Shown: piece after piece, positions 7,391 to 27,664 of the stretch
How positions within the stretch are numbered: position 1 is the stretch's first letter
Layout: each line of letters begins with the position of its first letter
NCBI GenBank assembly: GCA_021324685.1
Contig: JAJPIQ010000065.1
Span: 1 to 35,452, forward strand
From: Bacteroidota bacterium
Lineage (GTDB): Bacteria > Bacteroidota > Ignavibacteria > Palsa-1295
DNA length: 35,452 nucleotides
Direction: 5' to 3'
Position numbers and translations under genes: made by a program
Notes under the pieces: generated by a model
Told to the model about the DNA's origin: nothing
The model's input: the letters and a program-made list of their open reading frames with translations, nothing else
Database searches by the model: none

Positions 7391-10300
7391 CTATCGAACG
7401 ACCGGGAACCTCGCCGCCGCCTCGGTTCCTCCGGCTCGAAGGAGTACCGTGTAAAGGCCCGACGCGAGCGTTCTTGTATCGATCTTCAGTTTCCCGATTC
7501 CTTCCCGCTCGATCGCGGCCGGAACGGTCCGTCCCAATGCGTCCACGATTTCCACCGCCGGAACGGAATTCCCGAGTGATAGATAGGAACGGAATGCGAT
7601 CTCTATATCGTTCCGATCGGGATAGACCTGTTCGATCTGAATGGCAAGATGCCCACGCAGGGCCTCCATGAGCAGCGAATCGCCGCATGCGGGTGCAAGA
7701 GAAAAAGACGTACTGTCCCCTCCGGCGCTTAATACGCATGCCGCAAACGTAGGATCGGAACCATTAAGGACCGGGTCGCTTACCGTAATTCGAGTGCTCA
7801 GCGAATCGGCGACCGCCGTCCGGAAGACAAACTGTGCGATCGGGACCTGAGGGTCGAGCGAAATATTCGTTCCAGAATATTCCAGGCTGTCCCAGGTCAT
7901 GCTTCCCTGAGAATGTGCGGACTCCCAAAAGGCCAGGGGCGAGGTCGCACTTAGCTCCGACAACAAATCGCTATTATATGACACCGTAGCCTGGACCGAA
8001 TGTAGATCGACGTTCGAGACAGCGGTATCGGGATAGAGTCCGAGCGAGACGGTACCGTTCTGCGAGGCTGCCGTATGTGTGACGATCGCATGGAGATGAA
8101 ACTCGGGCGCCGCATGCGTTTCTGCGGCGATCGGGACCGTCAGCACGCTATCGTTTGCCGCATCGGAGAGGACCGTGAGATAGGCCGTGTCCCGTCCGAG
8201 CGACGGATCGTACGCAAGGATCACAGTGTCGGCCTGCCCGGGAAGGAGCAGGCTCCGTGTGGGATTCTTCAGGAACGAAAAATGAGTTCCGGAGAGGGCG
8301 ATGCTCTTGATCGCGATCGTATCGTCGCCGCCATTGATAAGAACGATCGCTGTATCGGCCGTGCGACAGAGCGAACCGGTGCCGAGATCGCGGAGCGTGC
8401 TATCGACAGAAAGAAATCTCGTTACGGGTGATAGCATCGCCACGAACGTGGCGGATAAGCTATCGAGAAACGGCGCCTGAAAAGCGTCCCGCGTCGTCGG
8501 GAAATCGGTGGAGGTCGTCATTCCGGCAAGGTACACGGAATGCCGGGTTCCGAGCGCGATCGCATTCGGACGTTCATCGCCCGCACCGCCTAAGTAGGTC
8601 GCATACACGAGCGAAGCACCGTTCGGATCGAGTTCCGCAACGAAGGCCTCGGTCCGGCCATGATTCGTCTTTTGAATCGCTCCCGGAAGCGTCGGAAAAT
8701 CGGACGAGGCCGTTGTGCCCGTAACGAAAGCCTCCCCGGCGGTATCGACCGCGATAGCGGTCCCGCCGTACTGCCCCTGAAAACCGGAAAATGAATCGAA
8801 CTCCGAATTGCCGATGAAGGTCGAATAGAGCACTGCGCGTCCGTCCGCGCTGAGCTTCGTGACAAACGCGTTCGGGCGTTCGAGGAGCGAGGGTTGGAAC
8901 GCTCCGCTCGAAGTTCGGAAATCCGGGGATGTCGTTACTCCGGTCACGAACATGTCTCCTGCCGAGTCGATCGCAATCCCGGTTCCCACGTCGTTTCGAG
9001 ACCCGCCGAGATAGGTCGCATACTCCAGTGCGGAGCCGCTCGGATTCAGTTCTGCGACAAATGCATTGAACTCGGTGTCGCTATGGATCGCCGGCTGAAT
9101 AGCGCCCGGGGTCACCGGAAAATCGGCGGCATTCGTGGAACCGACCAGGAATACATTCCCGGCCCGATCGAGCGCCATTCCCGCGGCTTCATTCATGACG
9201 ATGGGATAGGGATTGGGAAGTACGAGTTTCGATCCACCGAGATACGTCGAATAGATCAGGCCTGTTCCCCGCGCATTGAACTTCGTGACAAACGTCGAGG
9301 CGCAGCCAATACTCTCGAAGTTGTACGTGAACGCCCCGTTCTTCGTTTGAAATGCGCCTTTGGTAACTGGAAAGTCGGAGGACGATGTGGTCCCGAAGAC
9401 GATCGCCTCGCCGGCAGAATCGACGGCGATGGCAGACCCCGATTCTCCGTAGCCGTCGAAATCGCCGTCCGAGCCGCCGAGATAGGTGGAATACAGAAGG
9501 TGGGAACCATCCGAATCGAGCTTTGCCGCGAACGCGTTGACGTATCCGGGAGTCGTTCCCTTGCTTGCGCGCTGAAATGCGTTCGAAGTCACCGGAAAAT
9601 CGGTGGAGGTCGTGTTGCCCGTCACATAGGCGTCGCCGGCCGAATCGATCGCGATTGCGATTCCTTCATCCCCCCAGAAATAACTCGAGGAACCTCCCAG
9701 GTAAGTTGAATAGACGAGCGCGCTCCCGGAGGGGTTCAATTTTAAGATGAACGTGTTCGCGCCTCCCGCCTTGTTCTGATAGGCTCCCGGCGTCACCGGA
9801 AAACTCGTGGAGCCGGCCCATCCCGTCACATACGCGTCCCCGGCCCGATCGACCGCAAGCCCGAAGGCCTCGCTGCCGAACCCAAACCGCGAGGAATACA
9901 GAAGCGGATCGATCGTGACGGGCCGCGTCGGATCGTAGGGGCCGAGTTGGAAGGAGACCCGATTTCCATCGAGTCGAAAGGCACACGCGACCGGTTCTCG
10001 TGTCCCGTTTCGTTCCTGATACGCGGCAAGTTCCCGCTCTTCGATCGTGCCGAGCGATGTTCGGATCGAGAGAGTCCCATCGCCCTGTAGCACGATCGAA
10101 TCGGCACCGTTCATTTCCATTTGGACCTGGCTTACGTCCGCGCCCGGCTCGAGGACGAGATCGTATCGAGGCACTCCGCGATCGATCGTAAATATCGCGT
10201 CGATACCGTTATACAGGTGTTCTATCGTGGCACGCTCAAATGAACGAACGCCATGCACCCATCGTGTGCTATCGTTCCCAATGAAGTAGTTCGTCCGACC

Positions 10301-10648
10301 CGGATCGGGATCCGATGCAATGGCGTGCGGTCCCACCGTATGAAGAAAGGAACAGGAGATCACCGCACCGTCGCGTAACGGCGCGGGGTGCCCTTTCCCT
10401 GAAGGCGTGTGAAACGATCGCGCCGGCACAAGGGCGCCGGGCGCGTGGGCTTCCCCGCCTGCGATCCTGAACATATCGTACACCATTCCGGAATCGGTGA
10501 TCCAGAAATTGACCGTTCCGCACTGCAGTAAATATTTCGCGCGCGCATCCCACTGCCCTCGGTTTTCTACGAACGCCGCGGACGGTTGCGCACACAGGGG
10601 AGCGGCGAAGCAGGCAAGCAAGACCGACGCTTGCAGGAACGGTCTCAT
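7391..10648 (-). CDS. Secreted SBBP-repeat protein with T9SS sorting domain
   Basis: The start is taken at 10648 because the ATG overlaps the stop of the upstream gene as ATGA and begins a clear signal peptide (MRPFLQASVLLAC, cleavage after LCAQ); the frame extends 16 codons further upstream. The mature part opens with AFVENRGQWD, the N terminus of the DUF7948 domain that precedes SBBP propellers. At least seven SBBP (beta-propeller) repeats follow, each with LYSTYLGG, then AIDSAGDAYVTG, then TSTDFPVTxxAFQ. Around residues 745-850 is an ASH/choice-of-anchor-like beta-sandwich, and after it a possible cohesin-like sandwich (tentative). The last 80 residues are a type A T9SS C-terminal domain (IEQVYPDRN, VEIVDALGR, LASGLYTVLLR, ending FPVVR). 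The 1085-residue product is predicted to be exported by Sec, then passed across the outer membrane by T9SS and attached or released. Its partner or substrate is unknown. Confidence 0.92.
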   Translation of the reverse strand: MRPFLQASVLLACFAAPLCAQPSAAFVENRGQWDARAKYLLQCGTVNFWITDSGMVYDMFRIAGGEAHAPGALVPARSFHTPSGKGHPAPLRDGAVISCSFLHTVGPHAIASDPDPGRTNYFIGNDSTRWVHGVRSFERATIEHLYNGIDAIFTIDRGVPRYDLVLEPGADVSQVQMEMNGADSIVLQGDGTLSIRTSLGTIEERELAAYQERNGTREPVACAFRLDGNRVSFQLGPYDPTRPVTIDPLLYSSRFGFGSEAFGLAVDRAGDAYVTGWAGSTSFPVTPGAYQNKAGGANTFILKLNPSGSALVYSTYLGGSSSYFWGDEGIAIAIDSAGDAYVTGNTTSTDFPVTSNAFQRASKGTTPGYVNAFAAKLDSDGSHLLYSTYLGGSDGDFDGYGESGSAIAVDSAGEAIVFGTTSSSDFPVTKGAFQTKNGAFTYNFESIGCASTFVTKFNARGTGLIYSTYLGGSKLVLPNPYPIVMNEAAGMALDRAGNVFLVGSTNAADFPVTPGAIQPAIHSDTEFNAFVAELNPSGSALEYATYLGGSRNDVGTGIAIDSAGDMFVTGVTTSPDFRTSSGAFQPSLLERPNAFVTKLSADGRAVLYSTFIGNSEFDSFSGFQGQYGGTAIAVDTAGEAFVTGTTASSDFPTLPGAIQKTNHGRTEAFVAELDPNGASLVYATYLGGAGDERPNAIALGTRHSVYLAGMTTSTDFPTTRDAFQAPFLDSLSATFVAMLSPVTRFLSVDSTLRDLGTGSLCRTADTAIVLINGGDDTIAIKSIALSGTHFSFLKNPTRSLLLPGQADTVILAYDPSLGRDTAYLTVLSDAANDSVLTVPIAAETHAAPEFHLHAIVTHTAASQNGTVSLGLYPDTAVSNVDLHSVQATVSYNSDLLSELSATSPLAFWESAHSQGSMTWDSLEYSGTNISLDPQVPIAQFVFRTAVADSLSTRITVSDPVLNGSDPTFAACVLSAGGDSTSFSLAPACGDSLLMEALRGHLAIQIEQVYPDRNDIEIAFRSYLSLGNSVPAVEIVDALGRTVPAAIEREGIGKLKIDTRTLASGLYTVLLRAGGTEAAARFPVVR

Positions 10649-13068
10649 CGCACGACCTGGAATGTTTTCGTTCCGATCCGCCCGTCTGCACTGCACCGCA
10701 GCACGTAGGTGCCGATCGGGAGCGCGCTGACATCGAGGGGGCCACCACCCGCCGCTTCGCTGGTCCGGAGGACCACATTCCCAAGCACATTCAGGATCTC
10801 GATCTTCGCTTCGCTGTGGGAAGCGATACTAAGGTGCAGTTCGTCTTGCGCCGGATCCGGATACAACACAACGTTCAGGACGTCCGGCGTGGTAGAAACG
10901 GGCTGGCGCACCGCCGCGGCCGCAAGATTCAATCTCCCCCGATAGAACCCGTAGTCTGCCACGCTGATCGGGGTATTGATCGAAGGATCGATCTCCACGA
11001 TCGTATCGCCATTAATGACAGTATCTTTCGGAGGCACCACAAAATAGATCAGGGACCGAGCAAACGAAACGAGCACCGTGGAAGAATCGGGAAAGAAAAT
11101 ACCCTGCGTGCTCATACCGCTGCGGTTCGGGATTGTATCGTTATTGTAGATAAAAATATCCTGCCGATTGTAAATTTCCTCACGGTTGGTCGGGATCGGA
11201 AGCCAGGACCAATGCACCCCACCGTCCGTTGTCGAGAGCACGGCTTCGGTATCGATGGTCAGGAAGCCGATGCGCTCGTTTAAGAATTTGATCCCATTGA
11301 ACGAGTACAGTGCCGGAACGACCTGTTCCATGTTCCACGAGTTCCCACCGTCGGAGGTTCGATAAATTTTTCCGCCACTCGAAGTAAGGAAGCCGAGCGA
11401 AGAATTATAGAAATAGATTCCGGGCTGTGCCGCGAAGGACGGAACATTGGAAACCTTCTGCCACGAAACGCCGCCATCCGTCGTCGAATAAAGATCGAAC
11501 CGCGTCTTTTCGCCGTTCGAAAACGATTTTCCCGTTTGGACGATGAGGGTGTCCTCGACGCGCGCAAGCAGGTATGCATCGAGCGCACTCAGGGGATCGA
11601 TGGAAACGACGGTCGTCCTATAGACTTTATATCCGGCGTTGGAAGTTTCGGTCGAAAAGCGGAGGGTCGAATCCGGTTCCCAATTTTTTCCGCCATCGGT
11701 GGTCCGGACGAGCCCACTGACCGTCGCGAAGCCGGTATCGCTCCCGCCGAAGCACGGCATCGAGATGCTCGTGGGAGACATCGCCATGGCGTTCCAGGTC
11801 TCTCCGCTATCGGTCGTTTCAAGACTCGTGTAATCGAGCCAGCCGCCATGATAGATATAGCCGGTGTCCGCGGAGGCAAAGTGCATCCCGGTATATTCGG
11901 GATATTGGCCGTTCGTCACCTGCCAGAAGTACCCACTGTCCGTCGAGATCAATGGATAGGAACCCGCGAGGCATTGCAGGACCGCGCCGTTCGACGCATG
12001 AAGGCTTACGCCGGAATTAAAAGAACACTCGTGCAGGACCGTCCAATTGGGAGCGATCGCGTTTTCCGGCAACTCGGCTCGCAGGACGATGCCGCCATCG
12101 CCAAAAGGATTCCCATTCTGATCGATACCCCCACCCACGGCAAGCCAGTCGCCATCTCCCGTCCGAATAACATGGCTGATGCTGCTGGCCTGGCGCATCT
12201 GCGTGATGCTCACACTCTGTCCGAGATCGGTGGAAGTAAACAGATAGGCGTTCGGAGTCCCGAACATCGCGAAACTCGTGGGACCGAAAAAACTGACGGT
12301 CATATAATTGTCGTCGCGTTCGTCATGAAAAACCGGGGTAAATGCCCAGGTCGAGCCGCCATCGGTCGTGACATAATATCCTTCCAGCGCAGCAATGGCT
12401 CCGGTATCGCGATTATAAAAGTCGATATCCTGCGGAGCAATGCTGCCTGTTTGGAGCGTAACGGGAGCCCAGTGCGCACCGGCATCGCCGGTCACGACGC
12501 ACATATTGGGACCGATCGCGAACGTGCGGCCAAAGCATGTGACGAACTTATGCGGATTACTATATCCGGTATCGATAAAGACCGTATCCCAATGCGCGCC
12601 ACGGTCCGTCGATCGAAACAGCAATCCGAAAAGAAATTGTCCGTTCGATTCCCGGAATCCCTGAGTTCCCGTGATGAGCGTATCGGTACCCCATTCCCCC
12701 ACCGCGGTAAGCCAGGGTGAAGGCTGCGGACAGCCGTTCCATGTCGCTCCGCCGTCGGACGTGAGCAACAGGTTCCCACTCGCGACAAGGGCGCCATGAA
12801 GCGAATCGGCGAACGCGATCGAGTTGATATCGACGGTGTCGCTCACCTCCTGTCGCTGCCACGTCACTCCGTCGTCCTCGGTGCTGTAAAGATAGCCGTG
12901 ATCGGTCGCGGCGACCATGCGGGTCGGCGTTTGCTTCACGAGACCGGTAAAATGAATGGGACCGATCTTCTCCCAATGGGAAACGAGGGACGACTGAGCC
13001 CTCGTCTGTGACAACGGAAGGGTTGAGAACACAACGGCGGCGAAAAAAACAAACGAACGAAGACGCAT
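10645..13068 (-). CDS. Secreted Ycf48/BNR-like repeat protein with T9SS sorting domain
   Basis: The start at 13068 is chosen because a GGAGG Shine-Dalgarno site lies just before it and a signal peptide follows (MRLRSFVFFAAVVF, cleavage near TRAQ). About twelve repeats carry the Asp-box-like TTDGGxxW signature (TSDGGATW, TTDGGSTW, TTDSGETW, TTDGGKNW, TTDGGVSW), typical of Ycf48/BNR beta-propellers. The final 80 residues are a T9SS sorting domain (VVLYPDPAQDELHLSI, IEILNVLGNVVLR, LPIGTYVLR, ending TFQVVR). The 807-residue product is predicted to be secreted to the cell surface or medium. Its stop overlaps the start of the SBBP gene by 4 nt (ATGA), so the two cargo proteins are translationally coupled and probably act together. 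Enzymatic function is not evident; no sialidase catalytic residues were recognised. Confidence 0.92.
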   Translation of the reverse strand: MRLRSFVFFAAVVFSTLPLSQTRAQSSLVSHWEKIGPIHFTGLVKQTPTRMVAATDHGYLYSTEDDGVTWQRQEVSDTVDINSIAFADSLHGALVASGNLLLTSDGGATWNGCPQPSPWLTAVGEWGTDTLITGTQGFRESNGQFLFGLLFRSTDRGAHWDTVFIDTGYSNPHKFVTCFGRTFAIGPNMCVVTGDAGAHWAPVTLQTGSIAPQDIDFYNRDTGAIAALEGYYVTTDGGSTWAFTPVFHDERDDNYMTVSFFGPTSFAMFGTPNAYLFTSTDLGQSVSITQMRQASSISHVIRTGDGDWLAVGGGIDQNGNPFGDGGIVLRAELPENAIAPNWTVLHECSFNSGVSLHASNGAVLQCLAGSYPLISTDSGYFWQVTNGQYPEYTGMHFASADTGYIYHGGWLDYTSLETTDSGETWNAMAMSPTSISMPCFGGSDTGFATVSGLVRTTDGGKNWEPDSTLRFSTETSNAGYKVYRTTVVSIDPLSALDAYLLARVEDTLIVQTGKSFSNGEKTRFDLYSTTDGGVSWQKVSNVPSFAAQPGIYFYNSSLGFLTSSGGKIYRTSDGGNSWNMEQVVPALYSFNGIKFLNERIGFLTIDTEAVLSTTDGGVHWSWLPIPTNREEIYNRQDIFIYNNDTIPNRSGMSTQGIFFPDSSTVLVSFARSLIYFVVPPKDTVINGDTIVEIDPSINTPISVADYGFYRGRLNLAAAAVRQPVSTTPDVLNVVLYPDPAQDELHLSIASHSEAKIEILNVLGNVVLRTSEAAGGGPLDVSALPIGTYVLRCSADGRIGTKTFQVVR

Positions 13069-13535
13069 GGAACCTCCGAAAAGATGATACTTAAAAAACA
13101 CTCGGCCCACCTGCAAGTTGCCAAACTTGCCCCCGTTTCACTACTCAAAAACTACTTAGGCGAGCTGAAAACGGAACTTTAGAAAACCGTAGAAAGCGCA
13201 GGATTGACCTTCGGACCGCGGGATCCGATTGCTGGAAATAAAGGAACGAATAGAGCCGCAAGCCGTCCGGACAAACGGCAGCTTTGAAGGCTGCCAATTT
13301 TCCTTGACTCATAATCCCCCCTTACTCATCGTGCGGGCGTATCAGAAAAACTCATTATTACGTTTTCGTTACCGAACGGTAAAGTTGCCCCGCTATTCAT
13401 GAACTCCGTCGAACCATTGTTAAAGCGCGTTGTTCGGATAGAAAGCTTTGCATGAATAAAAAATAAGAATTATCGAAATTATTGAGATTCGACATTCGCT
13501 GCTCATTACTTTTTTGTCCACTTTTCAAAACCGTC
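13069..13535. other. Noncoding region between divergent T9SS cargo genes
   Basis: About 470 bases separate two divergent secreted-protein starts and must hold both promoters. No convincing gene or RNA gene was seen. A perfect inverted repeat with a 2-nt centre, TTACCG-AA-CGGTAA, lies at 13369-13382 and is a candidate operator. The frame of the rightward gene runs back to a TTG at 13482, but the ATG at 13536 fits the signal peptide better. Confidence 0.55.
13073..13077 (-). promoter_or_regulatory. Shine-Dalgarno site deciding the Ycf48-like start
   Basis: The minus strand reads GGAGGTTCCATG. This near-consensus ribosome-binding site, 4 nt before the ATG at 13068, favours that start over the upstream in-frame codon at 13116. 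Strong sites are uncommon among the genes in this window. Confidence 0.75.
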
Positions 13536-16500
13536 ATGATACGCTACTCTGCACTCGCGGCTATGTTGGTATTGCTGGTTTTTGTCGGAACGGCGTGGGG
13601 TTCGACCCTCACCATTAACAAGTCTAACGATGCACCCGCCGCCGGAGTCCAAAGCGGCGTGCCGTTCACCTACACGATAGGATATAACTGGTCGGGTGGG
13701 GTTCCCGCCGGTGGAACGCTGATCATCCAGGACATCGTACCTGCTCCTCTTATCGTGGTTTCCGCGGCACCCTCCTGCGGCGCCACGGCTGTCATAGGGG
13801 GAAATACCGTGACGGCTACGCATTCAGGGATCGTGACCACTGCCGGGTCGTGCGTGCTCCAGATTACCGTAGAATATCCGGTAGGGACCACCTGTCCCGG
13901 CACTTCGGTCTGCGATACTGCCCGTATTGCGGAACAAGGAAGCAATCCAGTATGGGTCTACTCGAACCCTTCCTGCTCCAAAGCACTGGCGACGAATAAT
14001 TGGCAATTCTCCAATCAACTTTACGCGGGCTGCGCTCCCTGCGCTGGGAATGATATTATTTTCCGAGTGTATGCCCTCAATCCCTCCGGGCCTTACGGCG
14101 GCTTAAATTTGGGCAATGTTACGCTGAACTTCTCGTTTCCCGCGCTTTCGGGCGCTGCGATTACAAGCGTCAGCGGCCCGTGTGGCGCGGTCCTGACAGG
14201 CCCGCCCCCGGCCGGTTGCTGGGGTGCGAGCGCCTACGGCAGCAACGCCGTTACGATCACGCTCAATCCGAGCGCGTCGCTTTCAGTCTGGAGTTATTGG
14301 TATGTCTTCTATATCCATGTGAATTTTCCCTGCGCCGATTCGAACCAGACGATCCTTTCGACCGCAGTATGGAACTATACCACACCGTGCTCGCCGAAGC
14401 CATTTAGTGTAACCGATACCGCATCGGTGAAAATTTGTAAGCCGGTTTCCTCGGGTAGCCTCTACAAATATTTTTACGAGCCGACCTACGATCCGTACAA
14501 TCCCTATTTTTATCCAGGTACCATTACTCCGGGCTGCTGCGGCACGTATGCCATTCAATACCAAAATACGGGTACGGTCTCGCAGACTGGCGTTGTCGTG
14601 ACCGATACCATTCCCGGTTACATGGACGTTTCGCAGATTTACACCACGGTTCCCTCCGGAATGACATCGGTCAAAGAAGAAGTGTGGCCCTATCCGTCCG
14701 GCCCGTGGACCATCATCCAATTGGCTCGGTCTTCTTCGGGCTCGGATCCAATTCCACTCAGCGTAACGCCGGTCGCCAAAATCCGCTGGACCTACACGGG
14801 GTCGCTGCCGATCGCTACGTCCTTCACGAATACGATCGACGTCTGCGTGCGGACGACAAATTTCAAAACGGGCGCGACGGTTGTCCCCGGCCAGGTAATG
14901 CGCGATACGGCAGTGGTACAGGTCTCCGGCTTGCCCAATTATGTTTATATCCTGGCCGACACCGTCAGTGCGGCTTCCCCAAAGCTGATCGCCGAGAAGT
15001 CGTTTATCGGAAAATGTGCCGGCGGTGCTTCGCCGAGCGGTCCATGGTATCCTGGAGATGTGGTACGCTTTAGAATAGCCGTCGCAAATGTAGGGAGCGC
15101 CGCTACGACTTCCCTCACGACCATCACCGATGCCCTGCCACCCGGATTCACGTATGAAGGTGGCGAGACCTACTATTTCGGGCCGATATTACCTCCCGGG
15201 AACTGGTTATCTCCATGGACGCCGGATTGTAGCACCGATTTTTCGTCGTACACTCCAGCGATTCAATCGCAGCTTGGAGGGCCTCTCACTTCTCCTTCGA
15301 TCGGTGCGACGAACTGCGTCTGGAAGTTCCCAACGCTGCCGGCGCAGTGCGACGGAACGCCGCTCTATTTTATGATAGAGTTCAATGTGCTGATCGACAC
15401 CGTTCCCCCCACGTTGCCCGGCACGTATGCCAATAACTTTACGATAGCGGCCCCGAATGCGGCTTCGGCGACCTCGAATAACGCGTATGTCGTCGTCAGC
15501 AGTAAACCCGGAGTCACCGCCGTGAAGCAGGTTCGAAGTGGAACAAGCGGAGCATGGGGTTCAACGGCTACGATTCCACCGGGAGGCACGGGACAATATC
15601 TTTTGACCGTCACGAATTCCGGGAACGTTCCCATCTCCAATTTGTGCATTCTCGATATTCTGCCCCATATCGGCGATATCGGGATATTGCCGCCGTACGC
15701 CGTGCGTAACAGCGCATTCAATCTTTCCTTGAATACGCCGATTACCTCGATCCTTCCGGCCGGTTTCACTCCGTCGTATTATAACGGCAGTCCGGCGAAC
15801 CTGGGAGGGACCGTTAATCCAAGCCGAACGGCGGTGTGCGGTGGCTTCTGTGGCGTGACGAATCCGGCCGGCGCGACCAGCGGAACATGGGGAGCCGTCT
15901 TACCTTCGTATGGAACGTACGCATTCTCCGTCTCCGCTGGTACCAATACCCTTGCGCCGGGCGCTTCGCTGAAAGTGATCGTTCCCTTTACCGTGCCCGC
16001 AAATGCAAAGGTGGGGTCGATGGCCTGCAATTCCTTTGCATATCAGTGCAATCCGACGGGAACGACGACATGCCTCGCCGCGGAACCGGTGGACGTTTGT
16101 ATTACGGTCGGGACCGACACGTCTTCCGGTGCATGCTGCCCTTGCGATACCATTGGCATCACCCCCAGTGCGTATCAAAACCTTCAGGAGCAATGGAAGA
16201 CATTCACGATTTATCATCTCCATGTATGCAGCCCCATTACGACGATCGATATTAAATATTTCGATTGCGGGACGGGCCTGCCCATCGCAAATCTTTCATA
16301 CGTCAATGGCGGCAACGTGCATGTGTACCGGAATACACCGTATACGAACACGCTGCTCCCCTATTGTGCGTTTAACATCAGCGACAACTACCAACACATG
16401 CCACTGACCGGATGCCTCGTTGGGAACGTACTGCCCACGTATGGGACGCCACCATCGCAGGACCGGGTTTCGTTCGATCTTGGATTGAACTACGGAGTGA

Positions 16501-17309
16501 CACCGCCTTCGTGGTGCATTCACGTGATCATTCATTATGCGGATGGGGATAGCTGCGTGGACACGATTCCTCCCTGGAAGCCGACCCCGCCCTCCGACGG
16601 GACCGGGATCGGATCGGGAACGCTCGACTCGCTCCGCAAGATCTATGTCGTTCCGATCAAGATCGATCCGGAACAATTCCCGGAGACGGTCCTCGGTTTT
16701 GCGACCGCAACGCTCGCCGATACCGCCGATGAAATTGTCGGCGGAAGCGGAGGGATCTGGGAGAGCCAGGTGGACTCGACATCACCCTCGATTCCTCCAA
16801 CGGTGCGGCCGCAACTGTTCGTCCAGAATAAGCATACGGCGCTATTCGAACTGCAACCGACTCCTGCAGGGTCGTTCGGCACCATGCAATTCTATCTCTT
16901 CGTCAGCCATCCGGGCGATTCGTCCAGGAAGCCGGTCGTTAAACTCGGCCTCTTCGATAACGAAGCGAACCTGCTTTCTACCGATAGCATACAGGCTTCG
17001 ATCACCACGAGCGGTGTCACTCCGTCGCCGGGGATTGTGGCAAACAACGGTATCGCGATCCTGGCGATCCGCCCGGACCCGGCACAAACGGCGATCGACG
17101 TGCAATACACGCTGGGAACCAATGAAGTAGCGAAGCTGGAAATGTTCAACACGCTCGGTCAGCAGGTTGGAGTGCTTGCCGATGGTTTCGAGAACCAGGG
17201 CGATCACACGACACACTTCAACATAAGCTCGCTTGCCGGCGGTACCTATTATCTGCGCCTTTCAACTCTGGCCGGCCAAACATCGGCCAGCTTCCAGATC
17301 GTACACTAA
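13536..17309 (+). CDS. Giant secreted DUF11-like repeat protein with T9SS sorting domain
   Basis: A 1257-residue protein from the ATG at 13536, which begins a signal peptide (MIRYSALAAMLVLLVF, cleavage near TAWG). The mature part starts LTINKSNDAPAAGVQSG. Several DUF11/CARDB-type beta-sandwich repeats follow, each marked by a phrase such as YAIQYQNTGTVSQTGVVVTD, FRIAVANVG...TTITDALPPGF or YLLTVTNSGNVPISN...ILDILP. These modules usually form stalks on surface proteins. Cysteine is unusually frequent for a Bacteroidota surface protein (CGG, CCPCD and similar clusters), suggesting disulfides outside the cell. The final 80 residues are a T9SS type A sorting domain (IRPDPAQTAIDVQYTLG, KLEMFNTLGQQV, LAGGTYYLRL, ending SFQIVH). 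It lies divergent to the other two cargo genes. It is most likely a structural or adhesive surface protein; no catalytic motif was found. Confidence 0.9.
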   Translation: MIRYSALAAMLVLLVFVGTAWGSTLTINKSNDAPAAGVQSGVPFTYTIGYNWSGGVPAGGTLIIQDIVPAPLIVVSAAPSCGATAVIGGNTVTATHSGIVTTAGSCVLQITVEYPVGTTCPGTSVCDTARIAEQGSNPVWVYSNPSCSKALATNNWQFSNQLYAGCAPCAGNDIIFRVYALNPSGPYGGLNLGNVTLNFSFPALSGAAITSVSGPCGAVLTGPPPAGCWGASAYGSNAVTITLNPSASLSVWSYWYVFYIHVNFPCADSNQTILSTAVWNYTTPCSPKPFSVTDTASVKICKPVSSGSLYKYFYEPTYDPYNPYFYPGTITPGCCGTYAIQYQNTGTVSQTGVVVTDTIPGYMDVSQIYTTVPSGMTSVKEEVWPYPSGPWTIIQLARSSSGSDPIPLSVTPVAKIRWTYTGSLPIATSFTNTIDVCVRTTNFKTGATVVPGQVMRDTAVVQVSGLPNYVYILADTVSAASPKLIAEKSFIGKCAGGASPSGPWYPGDVVRFRIAVANVGSAATTSLTTITDALPPGFTYEGGETYYFGPILPPGNWLSPWTPDCSTDFSSYTPAIQSQLGGPLTSPSIGATNCVWKFPTLPAQCDGTPLYFMIEFNVLIDTVPPTLPGTYANNFTIAAPNAASATSNNAYVVVSSKPGVTAVKQVRSGTSGAWGSTATIPPGGTGQYLLTVTNSGNVPISNLCILDILPHIGDIGILPPYAVRNSAFNLSLNTPITSILPAGFTPSYYNGSPANLGGTVNPSRTAVCGGFCGVTNPAGATSGTWGAVLPSYGTYAFSVSAGTNTLAPGASLKVIVPFTVPANAKVGSMACNSFAYQCNPTGTTTCLAAEPVDVCITVGTDTSSGACCPCDTIGITPSAYQNLQEQWKTFTIYHLHVCSPITTIDIKYFDCGTGLPIANLSYVNGGNVHVYRNTPYTNTLLPYCAFNISDNYQHMPLTGCLVGNVLPTYGTPPSQDRVSFDLGLNYGVTPPSWCIHVIIHYADGDSCVDTIPPWKPTPPSDGTGIGSGTLDSLRKIYVVPIKIDPEQFPETVLGFATATLADTADEIVGGSGGIWESQVDSTSPSIPPTVRPQLFVQNKHTALFELQPTPAGSFGTMQFYLFVSHPGDSSRKPVVKLGLFDNEANLLSTDSIQASITTSGVTPSPGIVANNGIAILAIRPDPAQTAIDVQYTLGTNEVAKLEMFNTLGQQVGVLADGFENQGDHTTHFNISSLAGGTYYLRLSTLAGQTSASFQIVH

Positions 17310-18851: not shown

Positions 18852-19616
18852 TTACAACTCCTCGTACATCCTTCTCATTTTTTTCAGGTCTTCCCAGGCG
18901 CCGTGTTTCCAGTCGGGATTGCGGAGCAGCGCGGCCGGATGATAGGTCACGATCACGGAAATGCCGCAAAAATCGAAGACCTGGCCCCGCATGCGTCCGA
19001 GCGACTCGTTCATTTTGAGCAAATTCGTTCCGGCAATGCGGCCGAGGCACAGAATGATCTTCGGCTTAACGATCGAGATCTGTTTCCAGAGGTACGGCTC
19101 GCAGGCTTCGACTTCGTCCGGCTTGGGATCGCGGTTGTTCGGCGGCCGCGATTTGAGAATATTCGCGATATAGACCTCCTCGCGCTTGAATTCGACCGCG
19201 GCGAGCATTTTGTTCAGTAACTGCCCGGCACGTCCTACAAATGGTTCCCCCTGCTTATCCTCGTCGGCCCCCGGCGCTTCGCCGATCACCATGACTTTCG
19301 CGTTCGGGTTCCCAACGCCGAAGACGAACTTCGTGCGGGTCTCTCCCAGGCGGCATTTCTGGCATTGGTTGATTTTCGATTCGAGTTCCTCCAGCGTTTT
19401 CGCGGTGTACCACGGCTCGTTGCGATGGACCTGTAATTTTTCTTCGAGGAGACCGATCGCAATGGAAGGTTGCGGTCCGGCAGCCGCAGCCGGGGCTTCG
19501 GAGACCGGCGCTTTGGCTGGGACGTAAGAGATGACATCGCCGAACCGGGCGGCTTGTTCTTTGACAAAGCGTTCGAGTTCGGCGGCGAGATCGTGTTCGG
19601 AAGGTGTTTTGCTCAT
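18852..19616 (-). CDS. Family 4 uracil-DNA glycosylase
   Basis: Removes uracil from DNA to start base-excision repair. The 254 residues include an N-terminal extension of about 80 residues of low complexity (Ala/Pro-rich near 35-50). Motif 1 is G112[19 protein letters not shown], and the C-terminal motif is H226PAALLRNP. Family 4 enzymes carry a 4Fe-4S cluster held by four cysteines. Here C85 and C88 ([10 protein letters not shown]) and C172 (ACEPYLW) are present, but the position 16 residues before C172, usually Cys in KCRPP, is S156 (LKSRPPNNR). C190 nearby might or might not compensate. The start overlaps the stop of the upstream gene as ATGA, so it is translated together with the PrnB-like gene. 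Confidence 0.93.
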
Positions 19617-20815
19617 GCCGTGGTGCGTTCGCGTTCGGAGTGGAATAATTCAGGATAGAGGCGTTCGAGATCGTTCTTTACGTTCTCGCGTTCGGCATTC
19701 AGGCCATCGCGGAGGAACGTGACAATATTCGTTCCGGCAGAACCGATCTGCTCGCCCGCGGCATTCTTTGGAACATGCCGCCGGGCCAGCTGCCAATGAA
19801 CGTTCGAGGCCGCGAGATAATGCTTCATAACCTCGCGTAGCGTGCGTGCAAGTTCCAATTGTTCGGCCCCGGAAAAGCGTTTCCGGATCGCGAGGAGGAG
19901 CGTATCGTTCGTACGCTCGATCGCATCGGTCGTTTGCACCAGTTCCTCATAGTCCTCCGGCAAAAAATATTTCGGGTGTAAGTATCGGCCGGAGTCGAAC
20001 TCGTAGCGAACCATGTCGGCACTCGTTCGTACGGCGGGAGGGTACCGCCGCTCCCCGCTCGTCCCTTCGAAGGAACGTTCGAAGACGCCTTTCAAATCGA
20101 CACCGAGGAGCAGATCGATCATATAGGGCCACGGTTGATCGCCGGCGTTGACGCCGCGTAAGGTTTTCCCGGCGATCTCCACAGCACCAAAGTACTGCGT
20201 AATGAACCGGAATTCTTCGCCGCCCGGCGTTTGGAGCAGCATCGAGTTCCCGTGCGAAATTTTCCGGAACGAGGTAACGGCGAGGTCCAGCAGCGAATGG
20301 AGGGATGCGTAATGTGCATTCCCCGTTTCGAGCATCCGGTACGCCTTCCAGAGCGCCTTCGCGGCATGCGTATATTGGAGCGTTCCCTCCTTGTTAATGC
20401 GGATAAACGCGGTCTCGTATTCGAGCGGACGGAACTGCGCGAAGCGGCCACGCAGGTCCGGAAGTTCGGGATTGTAAAATAAATAAAACACTGAAAGGAA
20501 CCGGTGCTCGACGCCAATGCGCGAGGCGAATTCCAGGACCATCGATTCTATCTCATTCACTTCCGCACTGACGTCGTGCGAGCGCGCCGGATGAGAGAGC
20601 GCGTGATGCCAGAGCGCGCTGTGCACCATCGTGAGGTACGTGTAAAGCTCTCGCTCGTGCGCTCTCGGCTCTTTTTCAATGTGGCGGCACAGGGCGAGGG
20701 ATTCGTGCAACAGGGTGGAAAGATCGTCCGTGTTTCCATCGTCGATCGATTTATTGAGATCGGGAAAGCGTCCGCGCATCCAGTCGCGGTAGTCAGCGGG
20801 CGAGTCGTGATGCAT
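19613..20815 (-). CDS. PrnB/IDO-like heme-dioxygenase superfamily protein
   Basis: A 400-residue, mostly helical protein. Two segments match my memory of PrnB (the pyrrolnitrin enzyme of the tryptophan/indoleamine dioxygenase superfamily). One is FxAVEIAGKTLRGVNAGDQP...MIDLLLG, where PrnB has a similar I-x-G-x4-G-x2-A-x3-P pattern. The other is H340WQLARRHV followed by GEQIGSAG, equivalent to PrnB's proximal heme histidine region and its GPEIGSGG. H340 is therefore the predicted heme ligand. True PrnB acts on 7-chlorotryptophan; no other pyrrolnitrin genes are here, so the substrate is probably different. The gene sits 17 nt after lat and overlaps the UDG gene by 4 nt. A TTG four codons upstream (20827) is an alternative start. 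The superfamily call comes from remembered motifs, not a search. Confidence 0.62.
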   Translation of the reverse strand: MHHDSPADYRDWMRGRFPDLNKSIDDGNTDDLSTLLHESLALCRHIEKEPRAHERELYTYLTMVHSALWHHALSHPARSHDVSAEVNEIESMVLEFASRIGVEHRFLSVFYLFYNPELPDLRGRFAQFRPLEYETAFIRINKEGTLQYTHAAKALWKAYRMLETGNAHYASLHSLLDLAVTSFRKISHGNSMLLQTPGGEEFRFITQYFGAVEIAGKTLRGVNAGDQPWPYMIDLLLGVDLKGVFERSFEGTSGERRYPPAVRTSADMVRYEFDSGRYLHPKYFLPEDYEELVQTTDAIERTNDTLLLAIRKRFSGAEQLELARTLREVMKHYLAASNVHWQLARRHVPKNAAGEQIGSAGTNIVTFLRDGLNAERENVKNDLERLYPELFHSERERTTA

Positions 20816-20832
20816 GGGAGCAGGCAATCGGG

Positions 20833-22239
20833 TTAATAATCGCGGAGGCTCAGCTCTTTTAATTGTTCCCGAATGATCGTGAGGCCGATCGAAAGTTCAT
20901 CGCGCGTGATCGTGAGCGGCGGTCGAAAACGAATCGAGCGATCGCCGGCCCCGATCAGGATCAGACCTTCCTCGTAACATTTCTGTTTCAGCAGGTCGCG
21001 CATTTGCGCTTCGGCGAGATCGAACGCGCACAGGAGTCCGCGGCCGCGCGCCTCGAAGACCAGCGAAGGAAATTCTTCCTGGATCTTTTCGATCTCGGCA
21101 AGTAAAAATTCCCCCTGCACACGCGCATTGTTCACGAGCTGGTCTTCCTCCACGATCTCGAAGTAGCGTTTGGAACGGACCATGTCGACCAGGTTCCCAC
21201 CCCACGTCGAATTGATCCGGCTCGGTTTCTGAAATACATTTTCGAGCACTTCATCGACGCGTTTCGAAGCGAGGATGCCACAGACCTGCGTTTTCTTGCC
21301 AAAGCTCATAATGTCCGGCTCGACAAAATGCTGGTGCGCCCACATTTTGCCGGTGAGTCCCACGCCGGTTTGTACTTCGTCGAAGATGAGCATTGCATCG
21401 TTCTCGTCGGCGAGCAGGCGGAGCGTCCTTAAAAATTCCGCACTGAAATGGTGGTCGCCGCCTTCGGCCTGGATCGGCTCGATAATGATGGCGGCAATAT
21501 CGTCGGGATTATTGATGAAGGCTTCTTTTATTTGCTGAATGGCGCGGGCTTCGTCCTGCCGCGCGCGTTCCAGATTATCGGGAGTGAGCGGAAAATGGAG
21601 GTAGGGAGAGTCGACGCGCGGCCAGTCTCGAAATTTCGGGAAGTACAGCGTTTTGTTCGGGTCGGTATTCGTCAGCGACATGGTATATCCCGAACGGCCA
21701 TGGAACGCATACCGGAAGTGGAGTACGAGGCGGCCGCGCTCGGTCGTATATCCATGCGTAAAGTTCTTTCGGACCTTCCAGTCGAACGCGGTCTTAAGCG
21801 CATTTTCGACGGCCAATGCGCCGCCCTCGATGAGGAAAAGGTGCGGAAGATAGTCGGGCATGGCGATGCGCGCGAACGTCTCGACAAATTCGGCCATTTC
21901 GACGGTGTACGCATCGGAACTCGACGGCTTGTTGACCGCTGCGCGCATGAGCGCTTCCTGAAATTCGGGCTCGAACATCTTTGGATGGTTGAGCCCGATG
22001 GGAGACGAACCAAAAAATGTGAAAAAATCGAGATAACGCTTTCCGCTGCGAGCATCTTCGATCCAGGAGCCTTTTGATTTTTTGAGATCGACCACAAGGT
22101 CCAGCCCATCGGCCAGCATGTGCCCGACGAGGGTTTCATGCACACGGGCAGGAGCAATATGAACCGGCTCGAAACGACGATGCGCCTGCCCATTGGTGGC
22201 AAAATCGGCGATGTTCTTTCTTTCGCGCGCTTCGTTCAT
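20833..22239 (-). CDS. lat: L-lysine 6-transaminase (lysine epsilon-aminotransferase)
   Basis: Class III PLP aminotransferase that moves the epsilon-amino group of L-lysine to 2-oxoglutarate, giving allysine, which cyclises to piperideine-6-carboxylate. The 468 residues are close to the expected length. Residues forming the active site are visible: D287 and Q290 in FDEVQTGVG, which contact the pyridine ring and O3', and the Schiff-base lysine K315 in SFGKKTQVCG. The TQVCG and INSTWGGNLVDMVR phrases are characteristic of Lat rather than ornithine or GABA transaminases. It is the first gene of a minus-strand operon with the PrnB-like and UDG genes, divergent from ispE across 50 nt. No beta-lactam genes are nearby, so lysine catabolism or another alpha-aminoadipate route is more likely. 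Confidence 0.92.
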   Translation of the reverse strand: MNEARERKNIADFATNGQAHRRFEPVHIAPARVHETLVGHMLADGLDLVVDLKKSKGSWIEDARSGKRYLDFFTFFGSSPIGLNHPKMFEPEFQEALMRAAVNKPSSSDAYTVEMAEFVETFARIAMPDYLPHLFLIEGGALAVENALKTAFDWKVRKNFTHGYTTERGRLVLHFRYAFHGRSGYTMSLTNTDPNKTLYFPKFRDWPRVDSPYLHFPLTPDNLERARQDEARAIQQIKEAFINNPDDIAAIIIEPIQAEGGDHHFSAEFLRTLRLLADENDAMLIFDEVQTGVGLTGKMWAHQHFVEPDIMSFGKKTQVCGILASKRVDEVLENVFQKPSRINSTWGGNLVDMVRSKRYFEIVEEDQLVNNARVQGEFLLAEIEKIQEEFPSLVFEARGRGLLCAFDLAEAQMRDLLKQKCYEEGLILIGAGDRSIRFRPPLTITRDELSIGLTIIREQLKELSLRDY

Positions 22240-22289: not shown

Positions 22290-23123
22290 ATGATCGCCCA
22301 CTCGAAAATCAATCTCGGCCTCGAAGTTCTGCACAAGCGCACCGATGGATACCACGAGATCAACACTGTCTTTTACCGTGTCCGTGAACCGCACGACGAA
22401 CTTCAGATAACGCGCGGTGGCTTTTTTCGCTTTACGCTCTCTGGTGCCGAACTTCCGGCGGACGAATCGAACCTCGTACTCCGTGCGGCACACGCGTTCG
22501 AACGCTGGACCGAACGGCCGCTGCCCCCGGTGCACATGCACCTTCATAAACAGATCCCGATGGGCGCGGGACTGGGCGGAGGGTCGAGCGATGCCGCCGC
22601 AATGTTCGCGTTCTTAAGCGAGGAACACCGTTTGAATGAAGCGGAGCGAAGGGAACTCATTCGCTTTTCGGCGAACACCGGGGCGGACGTTCCCTTCTTC
22701 CTTTCGGGCTCGCGCGCGGCAGTAGCCCATGGTATCGGTGAAATCTTGGAACCGATCGCGCTCGAAATTCCCGCTTCTATACTCATTGTGATCGATCCCG
22801 GGATCCAGAGCTCGACCCGCGAAGCCTATGCGGCGCTCTCGCCGGAAGTCGGACGGCGCGGAACGAATTACGCCGAATTTTTCCGCAAACCGCCGGCCCT
22901 GCGCCAATGGCGGGAACACTTATGTAACGATTTCGAGCCGGACGTCTTTCGCCGCTATCCGAAACTTGCGCAAATAAAGCAACAGCTGTATCGTGAAGGC
23001 GCGGCCTTCGCCCTGCTCAGTGGATCGGGATCGGCGTTGTTTGGACTCTTCGAAGACACTCAAAAAGGCGAGCACGCCAAACACACCTTCGAAGCGGAAG
23101 GCTTGCTCGCATGGTTAAGCTAA
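22290..23123 (+). CDS. ispE: 4-diphosphocytidyl-2-C-methyl-D-erythritol kinase
   Basis: GHMP kinase that phosphorylates CDP-methylerythritol in the non-mevalonate (MEP) isoprenoid pathway, in the cytoplasm. The 277 residues are typical. Visible motifs are K6INLGL near the start (catalytic lysine), the ATP loop PMGAGLGGGSSDAAA at about residues 90-104, D133 in GADVPFFL (catalytic base), and LLSGSGSALFG in the C-terminal domain. The 3' end overlaps the convergent purB by 9 nt, and the start is 50 nt from the divergent lat start, so both flanks are tightly packed. Confidence 0.96.
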   Translation: MIAHSKINLGLEVLHKRTDGYHEINTVFYRVREPHDELQITRGGFFRFTLSGAELPADESNLVLRAAHAFERWTERPLPPVHMHLHKQIPMGAGLGGGSSDAAAMFAFLSEEHRLNEAERRELIRFSANTGADVPFFLSGSRAAVAHGIGEILEPIALEIPASILIVIDPGIQSSTREAYAALSPEVGRRGTNYAEFFRKPPALRQWREHLCNDFEPDVFRRYPKLAQIKQQLYREGAAFALLSGSGSALFGLFEDTQKGEHAKHTFEAEGLLAWLS

Positions 23124-24612: not shown

Positions 24613-25077
24613 ATGCGCCAAAGGAGACTGTTCTTTATGTTAGCGACAATAGTACTTGCAGCTTCGCTGGCGACTTCGCCGGCCGGGGCTAAACTTCCCG
24701 CCCACGCCACCCCTGCGATTTCCGCACCATCGACCGCACCGGTTGCTGCTGCTCCGATCACCTCACCGTCGATCGTGCCGGTTGCTTCGCAGTCGGTTGT
24801 TTCCGCGCCGGTTGCTTCGCAGTCGGTTGTTTCCGCGCCGGTTGCTTCGCAGTCGGTTGCTTCCGTGCCGGTTGCTTCGCAGTCGGTTGCACCAATGGTA
24901 TCTTCTGAGATTGCGGTCACGCTGCATTCGATGACTCCGGAGGAGCAGAAAATCTATCCCGGTCGCCAGAATTGGGACAAGACCGAATGGTACGAAGCGC
25001 AAATGAAGAGCGCCAAGATCGTCATTCTTCCCGAACATGTGGACGAATGGCACAACGGCGGCCTGGAGATCGCTTAA
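24613..25077 (+). CDS. Small secreted protein with VASQS tandem repeats
   Basis: A 154-residue protein I do not recognise. A signal peptide (hydrophobic core LATIVLAASLATS, cleavage near AGA) is followed by a low-complexity Ala/Pro/Ser/Val region (about 30-95). This contains four PVASQSV units encoded by near-identical 30-bp DNA repeats. The C-terminal 55 residues are non-repetitive and look folded or helical (MTPEEQKIYPGRQNWDKTEW, ending EWHNGGLEIA), with several Trp. Two starts are possible. ATG 24613 gives a basic n-region MRQRR. ATG 24637 has AAGGAG 10 nt upstream. The first ATG lies in the right arm of a small hairpin (GGCGCAT, 7 nt, ATGCGCC), which might control initiation. A clear terminator follows. 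Confidence 0.8.
   Translation: MRQRRLFFMLATIVLAASLATSPAGAKLPAHATPAISAPSTAPVAAAPITSPSIVPVASQSVVSAPVASQSVVSAPVASQSVASVPVASQSVAPMVSSEIAVTLHSMTPEEQKIYPGRQNWDKTEWYEAQMKSAKIVILPEHVDEWHNGGLEIA
24781..24890 (+). repeat. Perfect-phase 30-bp tandem repeats
   Basis: Copies start at 24781, 24811, 24841 and 24871. The first two are identical and the later ones differ by one or a few bases; the fourth is partial. Each codes for ten residues containing VASQSV. The 30-bp period preserves frame, so slippage would change repeat number without breaking the protein. Confidence 0.92.
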
Positions 25078-25165: not shown

Positions 25166-25873
25166 ATGACAAACGCACCTCTCGCCTGGATCGTCGGCGG
25201 CTCGCGCGGCATTGGCTTCGCGTGTGCCGAGGCGCTGCACCGCGAAGGCTATCGCATCGCGATCTCCGGGCGAGACAGCGAGATGCTAACCGCTTCCGCC
25301 GCGAAGATCGACCGTTCGATCCTTGCCGTCGTCTGCGATGTCACGAGCGAAGGATCCGTGCAGGCAGCCTATCGCACCATTGTCGACCGCTTCGGGGCCG
25401 CGCCGGACGTGCTCCTTAACAGCGCCGGGATTTCGCCGTGGGATACGTTTTCGGAAACGAGCATCGACACATTCGATGCCGTCCTGGCAACGAACATGCG
25501 AGGGCTTTTTCTCACTGCGCGCGAAGTGCTCCGCGACATGTTCGCACGCGGTTCAGGGACGATCGTACACATGCTTTCGGTCGCCGCGCTTAAAGGCTAT
25601 AAAAACGGCGCGGCCTATGTGGCCAGCAAATTTGCCGCCCTCGGGTTTACGAATGCGCTCCGCGAAGAAGCGCGCACGCATGGCGTGAGCGTCATCTCCA
25701 TTTTTCCTGGCGCAACGGAGACGGAACTCTGGGACGAAACAGAGCGAACACAGTATCACGATCGCATGATGCAGCCGGAAGATATTGCGCACGCCATCGT
25801 TTCGGCGCTTCGGGAACCGAAACGCGCCGTCATGGAAGAAATAGTGTTGCGGCCGATCCAGGGAGACCTTTGA
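25166..25873 (+). CDS. Short-chain dehydrogenase/reductase (SDR)
   Basis: A classical SDR of 235 residues that binds NAD(P)H with a Rossmann fold. The dinucleotide loop is G11GSRGIG17 (the usual T of TGxxxGIG is replaced by G). NSAG lies at 85-88. The catalytic tetrad is complete: N110, S138 (HMLSVAA), Y151 and K155 (YVASK). The closest general match is a 3-oxoacyl-ACP reductase-like or sepiapterin-reductase-like oxidoreductase; the substrate is not predictable. hutU begins 6 nt after its stop, so the two are likely cotranscribed. No other fatty-acid genes are nearby. Confidence 0.93.
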   Translation: MTNAPLAWIVGGSRGIGFACAEALHREGYRIAISGRDSEMLTASAAKIDRSILAVVCDVTSEGSVQAAYRTIVDRFGAAPDVLLNSAGISPWDTFSETSIDTFDAVLATNMRGLFLTAREVLRDMFARGSGTIVHMLSVAALKGYKNGAAYVASKFAALGFTNALREEARTHGVSVISIFPGATETELWDETERTQYHDRMMQPEDIAHAIVSALREPKRAVMEEIVLRPIQGDL

Positions 25874-25879
25874 ACACAG

Positions 25880-27664
25880 ATGAATATGAATGACGAATCA
25901 CTAAAAACAGCAACGCGGCCACCGAGCGATCGTCCTGAGCCATTGAGCCGCCGCCATTCCGATATTCATGCCCCTCGGGGAACGGAACTTTCCTGCCAGG
26001 GCTGGCCGCAGGAGGCCGCCATGCGGATGCTGATGAATAATTTGGACCCGGACGTTGCCGAGCGGCCGAAGGACCTGATCGTCTATGGCGGGTCCGGCAA
26101 GGCCGCGCGAAATTGGGACTGCTACGACGCGATCATTCGGGAACTCAAATCCTTGAAGCAGGACGAAACGCTGCTCGTGCAGTCCGGCAAACCCGTCGGC
26201 GTACTCCAAACCTATTCCGATGCACCGCGCGTGGTCATCAGCAATTCGCAGATCGTTCCGCACTGGGCGACCTGGGACGAGTTCCGCCGCCTGGAAGCAC
26301 TCGGCCTCACGATGTTCGGCCAGATGACGGCCGGTAGCTGGATCTATATCGGCAGTCAGGGCATCGTCCAGGGAACTTACGAAACGTTCATGGCCTGCGC
26401 CCAAAAGCATTTTGGCGAGCATTCCTCCTACGCTTCGAGCGGACCAGCCACGCCCGCGCGGCGCCAAGCGGGGGGCCTTTCCGGAAAAATCGTTCTCACG
26501 GCCGGTCTGGGCGGAATGGGCGGGGCACAACCGCTGGCCGCGACCATGGCCGGCGCCGCATTCCTCGGTGTTGAGATCGACGAAGCACGAGCGCAGAAAC
26601 GGATCGATACCGGCTATTGCGACCGCATCACCCATTCACTCGACGAGGCGCTCAAGATCGTCACAACGGCAAAAGAAAAAGGCAGCGCGATCTCGGTCGC
26701 GCTTATCGGAAACGCCGCCGAGGTCCATCCGGAACTTGTTCGCCGAGGGTTTACGCCCGATGTCGTCACCGACCAAACGAGCGCGCACGATGTGTTGAAC
26801 GGGTACTACCCCGCCGGCTATTCCAAAGCGGAAGCCGATGAGCTTCGGAAGAACGATCCGGAACGCTATATGGCAGACGCCCGAGCTTCGATCGTCACGC
26901 ATGTCGAAGCGATGCTCACGATGCAGCAGCGCGGCGCGATCGCCTTCGATTATGGGAACAATATTCGCGGGGAGGCCCAGGCGAACGGCCTTGCCCGTGC
27001 GTTCGACATCCCGGGATTCGTTCCGGAATATATTCGACCGCTGTTTTGCGAAGGCAAAGGACCGTTCCGATGGGTGGCCCTTTCGGGCGATCCGGAAGAC
27101 ATCTATACGACCGACCGCGAACTCCTGAACTTGTTTCCGGACGATGCGACGCTGCACCGCTGGATCCCGCTCGCGCAAACGCACATTCATTTCCAGGGAC
27201 TGCCCGCCCGAATTTGCTGGCTGGGCATGGGCGCGCGCGCCAAAGCCGGACTGTTATTCAACCGGCTTGTCCGCGAAGGTAAAATAAAAGCTCCCATCGT
27301 GATCGGCCGCGACCATCTCGATACCGGCAGCGTTGCCAGCCCGAACCGTGAGACCGAAGGAATGAAAGACGGCAGCGATGCCATTGCCGACTGGCCGATT
27401 CTCAACTTTGCGATGAATGCCATTGGCGGAGCGACGTGGGTCTCGCTCCATCACGGCGGTGGCGTCGGCATTGGGAACTCGATTCATGCCGGGATGGTCA
27501 TCGTCTGCGATGGCACGCCCGATGCCGATCGCCGTCTCGAGCGTGTCCTGAATTACGATCCGGCAATGGGCTTGCTCCGGCATGCCGATGCTGGTTATGA
27601 AACGGCAATCGAGGAAGCAAGCCGGCATCGAGTGCATATTCCAATGGAGCCGGCAAATAGGTAA
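25880..27664 (+). CDS. hutU: Urocanate hydratase
   Basis: Converts urocanate to 4-imidazolone-5-propionate, the second step of histidine breakdown, using tightly bound NAD+ in the cytoplasm. Conserved stretches include [11 protein letters not shown] at about 69-79, [12 protein letters not shown] at about 147-158, the NAD-binding G210[28 protein letters not shown] at about 296-314, and the active-site cysteine C446 in [13 protein letters not shown]. The 594 residues exceed the usual 555 or so; the surplus is an N-terminal extension (about 25 residues) and an insertion near 180-200. No hutH, hutI or hutG lies in the window. The last codons form the first copy of a 28-bp tandem repeat, so the natural C terminus may have been altered by repeat expansion. 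Confidence 0.96.

Follow-up and report, generated by a model that had tools for sequence, protein, structure and literature searches.

We analysed a 35,452-nt stretch of DNA from a Bacteroidota bacterium (GenBank assembly GCA_021324685.1, contig JAJPIQ010000065.1, forward strand; hereafter the window), in which a gene of the PrnB family (PF08933) follows lat, the gene for L-lysine 6-aminotransferase (Lat). On balance, gene content and sequence comparison favor the view that this PrnB-family heme protein replaced tryptophan 2,3-dioxygenase (TDO) in situ behind lat and oxidizes tryptophan to N-formylkynurenine. The PrnB-like protein occupies the slot of TDO, and the two never occur together in the sampled genomes of the family, so that it most likely took over the job of TDO. 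The swap would have taken place in a sub-lineage of an uncultured Kapabacteria/Ignavibacteria-like genus. The features that bear directly on this proposal are:

20833-22239, minus strand: lat, L-lysine 6-aminotransferase (TIGR03251, 675 bits, cut-off 521)
19613-20815, minus strand: PrnB-family gene encoding a heme-dioxygenase-fold protein, 400 amino acids from the ATG (Pfam, PDB profile match, and fold)
19796-19798, minus strand: codon of H340 (H344 in TTG numbering), the predicted proximal heme ligand (alignment)
19733-19756, minus strand: GEQIGSAG loop of the PrnB-like protein, in which Ser S359 (ATG numbering) aligns with PrnB S332 and human IDO1 T379

The preliminary description of this DNA had the gene pair right: both genes are on the minus strand, and 17 nt separate the lat stop codon from the ATG of the PrnB-like gene at 20815. 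An alternative TTG start at 20827 would give a protein of 404 amino acids; homologues begin close to the ATG. The two genes probably form one transcription unit. In the mechanism we propose, the PrnB-like protein would hold heme through H340, activate O2 on the distal side of the heme, and use it to cleave the C2-C3 bond of the L-tryptophan indole as TDO and indoleamine 2,3-dioxygenase (IDO) do, yielding N-formylkynurenine. This product would be deformylated and then used by a kynureninase-family enzyme whose gene lies at another place in the genome, with Lat probably only sharing the transcription unit.

Gene content of the slot behind lat

Gene calls around lat were compared in 24 genomes (G000 denotes the genome of the window, and the other G numbers denote the related genomes with which it was compared). 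Where the slot could be read in sister genera (G007, G008, G009, G011, G012), lat is immediately followed, on the same strand and after 6-57 nt, by a PF03301 TDO gene. TDO is also found behind lat in G003, the sole congener without a PrnB-like gene, with one gene inserted between the two. The inserted gene is an open reading frame (ORF) of ~1230 amino acids on the opposite strand (L048:8979-12665), and G002 carries an opposite-strand ORF of 771 amino acids (L012:6185) between lat and its PrnB-like gene; this spot seems to have taken up large ORFs more than once.

A PF03301 search of 149 genomes located TDO, within the family, in G003 and G007-G012 (seven genomes) and returned no match in G000, G001, G002, G004, G005, or G006. 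A search of 149 related genomes with the PrnB-like protein detected it in its own genus only, in 6/7 genomes, and PF08933 identified none beyond that genus among 395 genomes of the phylum. Scanning a collection of genome contigs with the same protein recovered four loci, all from congeners already found and recorded as metagenome-assembled genomes (MAGs) of Ignavibacteriae bacterium, Bacteroidetes bacterium (two), and Candidatus Kapaibacterium sp.; tblastn against plasmids with the window protein gave no match. Each of the 13 sampled family genomes encodes exactly one of the two proteins, TDO in seven and the PrnB-like protein in six, and none encodes both. Because the genomes share descent, the strength of this pattern lies in the coincidence of position, and it does not amount to 13 independent trials.

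TDOs of this family are divergent, with scores of about 90-108 bits where those of several other families in the class reach about 370, and align with solved TDOs along the catalytic motifs HQ..ELWF, SGFQS.Q.R, W...H, and GTG. A second family of the class (f4: G025, G043, G015, G034, G052) also has divergent TDOs of about 105-116 bits in frames of 290-360 amino acids; the one in G015 is accompanied by full kynureninase, cyclase, and 3-hydroxyanthranilate dioxygenase (3-HAO) genes.

The preliminary description proposed that the heme enzyme and Lat together perform an undescribed oxidation, perhaps of a lysine- or tryptophan-derived compound. The fold group and ligand position behind that idea stood up, and a tryptophan-derived substrate is plausible, but the coupling to Lat or to a lysine product was not supported by the comparison. 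A heme enzyme that partners Lat and acts on piperideine-6-carboxylate or another lysine-derived product would account for the 17-nt spacing and for the adjacency of the genes in three more congeners (G001, G004, G005). Conservation of the pair is partial, with adjacency in 4/6 genomes, a distance of 2.6 kb in G002, and placement on another contig in G006. Moreover, lat is found throughout the class without a PrnB-like gene (above the TIGR03251 cut-off in 48/61 related genomes), its slot is common with TDO, a tryptophan enzyme, and characterized enzymes of the superfamily use aromatic substrates (PMC11791213). With lat present across the class and TDO found in the same slot, we rejected a Lat-coupled lysine oxidation as very improbable. 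As the slot behind lat holds TDO in sister genera, the pairing points to tryptophan rather than lysine, and adjacency to lat looks like an operon partnership inherited from the lat-TDO arrangement.

Two of these genomes have further features of their own. Behind lat on contig 59 of G006 (L049:2995-8300), one gene set (clusters c13, c24, c25) occurs twice in tandem. The G004 MAG has rpoB matches on two contigs (C50, C11) and contamination of 7%, and may be mixed.

Family and fold of the PrnB-like protein

Membership in the PrnB family, as first suggested from motifs, was confirmed with a PF08933 score of 34.1 bits (curated cut-off 27, E 1.8e-8). A profile of the six homologues matched SO4414 (PDB 1ZEE/2NWB) among PDB sequences with E 1.1e-14. 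The suggested relationship to IDO was not recovered at the profile level: the window protein had no PF01231 match at E 0.1, and a genome search with PF01231 found none, although control genomes gave no match either. PF03301 likewise gave no match to the window protein up to E 0.1.

An AlphaFold2 model computed with five window/locus sequences as input (mean pLDDT 71.5, pTM 0.69) agrees with the expected fold. Foldseek matched it to 2NWB (E 9.6e-7), and VIA-align gave Z scores of 20.5 for SO4414, 19.5 for PrnB, 19.3 for IDO2, and 18.8 for IDO1 over about 305-327 residues. By its predicted structure, the PrnB-like protein is a member of the PrnB/IDO/TDO fold group. We considered whether it might be a diverged TDO rather than a displacing protein and rejected this, given its clear PF08933 and SO4414 similarity, the lack of a PF03301 match, and a best blastp E value against TDOs of 0.003. 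The closest pair of homologues has nonsynonymous divergence (dN) of 0.24 and synonymous divergence (dS) of 3.4; dS is saturated, so these values are only indicative of divergence under purifying selection.

Predicted heme ligand and distal pocket

Pocket correspondences rest on very distant proteins aligned with MAFFT, on a HMMER motif match, and on conserved motif order; the human IDO1 sequence used is identical to PDB 5EK2. Alignment of the six-sequence profile with two-sequence PrnB and single-sequence IDO1 profiles in hhalign gave no significant score. H340, singled out in the preliminary description as standing in place of the proximal heme ligand, is invariant in the six PrnB-like homologues and shares a column of the superfamily alignment with PrnB H313 (Burkholderia prn cluster) and human IDO1 H346. 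We infer that the protein binds heme through this residue. The GEQIGSAG loop is likewise present as described: the C-terminal HWQLARR...GEQIGSAG matches HFQLAQR...TTGSAG of crystallized PrnB, including its GSAG. This motif match counts only alongside other evidence because its E value is 0.07 by itself.

All six PrnB-like proteins keep the IDO residue at positions F163, F226, A264, G265, and T382, and at these positions the distal pocket appears to resemble that of IDO. The position of IDO1 T379 holds Ser, like PrnB S332. PrnB Y321, which we take to be an active-site residue, is replaced by Val in all six, near IDO I354. The distal pocket, as aligned, is not a copy of that of IDO, because the S167 position holds Asn and the R231 position (PrnB R206) holds Thr in all six by remote alignment, T206 of the window protein counted from the ATG; PrnB and a SO4414 homologue have Arg at the latter.

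Downstream steps and the product of the proposed reaction

A kynureninase-family gene is present in 13/13 family genomes, with 69-82% identity to the G000 copy (C12:26870-28078). Among PDB entries, the encoded protein best matches 1QZ9, a bacterial kynureninase, over the full length (E 3e-34) and far ahead of cysteine desulfurases. In G009 the gene order is lat-TDO-kynureninase-like, with the last gene directly behind TDO. 3-HAO was not found in any of the 13 family genomes and NadA was found in 11, and on these grounds a route from kynurenine to NAD was rejected. The route looks like one from tryptophan to kynurenine/anthranilate rather than one for NAD synthesis.

The same genes bear on whether the product is indeed N-formylkynurenine. 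The PrnB-like protein might instead oxidize tryptophan or another indole to a different product, such that the slot was conserved through its substrate while the pathway changed. Precedents exist within the fold group, which includes MarE, producing a mono-oxygenated oxindole (PMC11904535), and PrnB, producing a rearranged product (PMC11791213). The Thr and Asn at the R231 and S167 positions fit such a change, as does the failure to find a cyclase-type kynurenine formamidase in G000. However, the kynureninase-family gene is kept in genomes with the PrnB-like gene as in those with TDO, which suggests the same downstream step, and the PrnB Y321 residue is missing. Absence of the formamidase is not specific to the swapped genomes either: within the family it was found in G001 and G005 only, and not in the TDO genomes G003 and G007-G012. 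We regard a product other than N-formylkynurenine as the main rival reading, though an unlikely one. We also give only a small chance to a variant in which the protein that displaced TDO carries out some other indole oxidation, with a product that passes to the kynureninase-family enzyme or into a new branch; tryptophan catabolism in this lineage would then begin with an undescribed step.

History of the proposed exchange

In an rpoB tree, the six genomes with the PrnB-like gene are grouped together, with G009 and G003, which carry TDO, as successive outer branches. Support for the key branch is 61/24, and a single change is needed in 62% of bootstrap trees. With this weak support, the tree is compatible with an ancestral TDO that was displaced once.

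Several observations weigh against a displacement of TDO that preserved its function. The lat tree places G003 beside G001/G002 (85/88) and requires two changes. The either/or distribution may represent one evolutionary event, and in G006 the PrnB-like gene is unlinked from lat, with its uracil-DNA glycosylase neighbor kept. Confidence in the structural model is moderate, the kynureninase-like protein scores under the TIGR01814 cut-off, and the formamidase expected for the next step was not found in G000. Thr at the R231 position is a reason for caution about tryptophan binding. It is not fatal because tryptophan binding without an Arg has precedent: in PrnB crystal structures, two Gly, a heme propionate, and a Ser in the C-terminal loop hold the Trp carboxylate (PMC11791213).

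A single event would also suit a coincidence in one lineage, in which the loss of TDO was accompanied by the arrival behind lat of a PrnB-family gene with an unrelated function (e.g., a heme or indole binder). Such an event could explain the whole distribution, and divergence is much faster in the PrnB-like sequence than in lat (44-57% vs about 79-83% identity to the window copies). It is improbable, however, that a protein of the same superfamily would land by chance at the exact position of a lost TDO. The gene and its ligand and loop motifs are, moreover, kept in 6/6 sampled descendants, even where linkage to lat was lost (G006) or interrupted (G002). We find this coincidence quite unlikely, and replacement of TDO by the PrnB-like protein with retention of its reaction remains our preferred explanation.

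Other genes in the window

The lat and PrnB-like genes are flanked by:

18852-19616, minus strand: family-4 uracil-DNA glycosylase (TIGR00758, E 2.8e-67), overlapping the PrnB-like gene by 4 nt
22290-23123, plus strand: ispE-like GHMP kinase (Pfam GHMP kinase), the divergent flank of lat

The uracil-DNA glycosylase gene adjoins the PrnB-like gene in 4/6 homologous loci, and the ispE-like flank of lat is common to the lat-PrnB-like arrangement and the lat-TDO arrangement of the sister genera. A short-chain dehydrogenase gene followed by a urocanate hydratase gene (TIGR01228, 924 bits), of histidine catabolism, lies at 25166-27664 on the plus strand. The latter is ~3 kb from lat, so that several amino-acid degradation genes are near one another. 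Between a purB-like lyase gene and the short-chain dehydrogenase gene is a small ORF (24613-25077, plus strand) with short SQSVVSAPVA repeat units. Farther away, 7391-17309 holds a cluster of large putative secreted proteins, with a DUF7948/SBBP beta-propeller protein, a BNR/YCF48-like protein with a Por secretion tail, and a protein of DUF11 repeats with a Por secretion tail.

Comparison with known systems

The best match among solved structures in both sequence and fold is SO4414 of Shewanella oneidensis (PDB 1ZEE, 2NWB), a putative 2,3-dioxygenase with ferric heme, on which no paper was found in the literature searched. SO4414 and the PrnB-like protein share the motif RG.NAGD, but their identity is only 18-19%. 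A Novosphingobium homologue, used as a proxy for SO4414, resembles the PrnB-like protein in its Asn at the IDO S167 position but differs from it in having an Arg at R231 and in lacking the GSAG loop.

PrnB, monodechloroaminopyrrolnitrin synthase, shares PF08933, the H313 and S332 positions, the motif H.QLA.R...GSAG, and the fold (Z 19.5) with the PrnB-like protein, at about 12-15% identity in structural alignment. It differs in having Tyr at Y321 and Arg at R206, where the PrnB-like protein has Val and Thr, and in its genomic setting. For pyrrolnitrin, PrnB sits with a tryptophan 7-halogenase, PrnC, and the Rieske protein PrnD (cf. prn cluster L108). As the preliminary description held, no such cluster was found at the window locus; a Pfam/NCBIfam scan of window proteins, which took in some but not all ORFs, gave no prn halogenase or Rieske gene.

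TDO (KynA, PF03301) shares with the PrnB-like protein the superfamily fold, the proposed reaction, and, in sister genera, the position behind lat, but the window protein lacks a PF03301 match and has only marginal blastp similarity to TDOs. IDO1 and IDO2 (PF01231) resemble it in fold (Z 18.8-19.3), the proximal His, and the F163, F226, A264, G265, and T382 positions; the window protein differs from them in lacking a PF01231 match and in its Thr and Asn at R231 and S167.

The superfamily itself is known, and what would be new is the role inferred for the PrnB/SO4414 branch. No description of a PrnB-family replacement of TDO was found in the literature searched, where subscription journals were thinly covered. 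PrnB, whose activity is hard to reconstitute in vitro (PMC11791213), is the only member of this branch of heme-dependent aromatic oxygenases for which that literature gave a known pathway role. An in-place swap against TDO offers another member of the branch a concrete candidate substrate and reaction. If it is true, the superfamily has a third branch, next to those of TDO and IDO, in which tryptophan dioxygenation arose or persisted.

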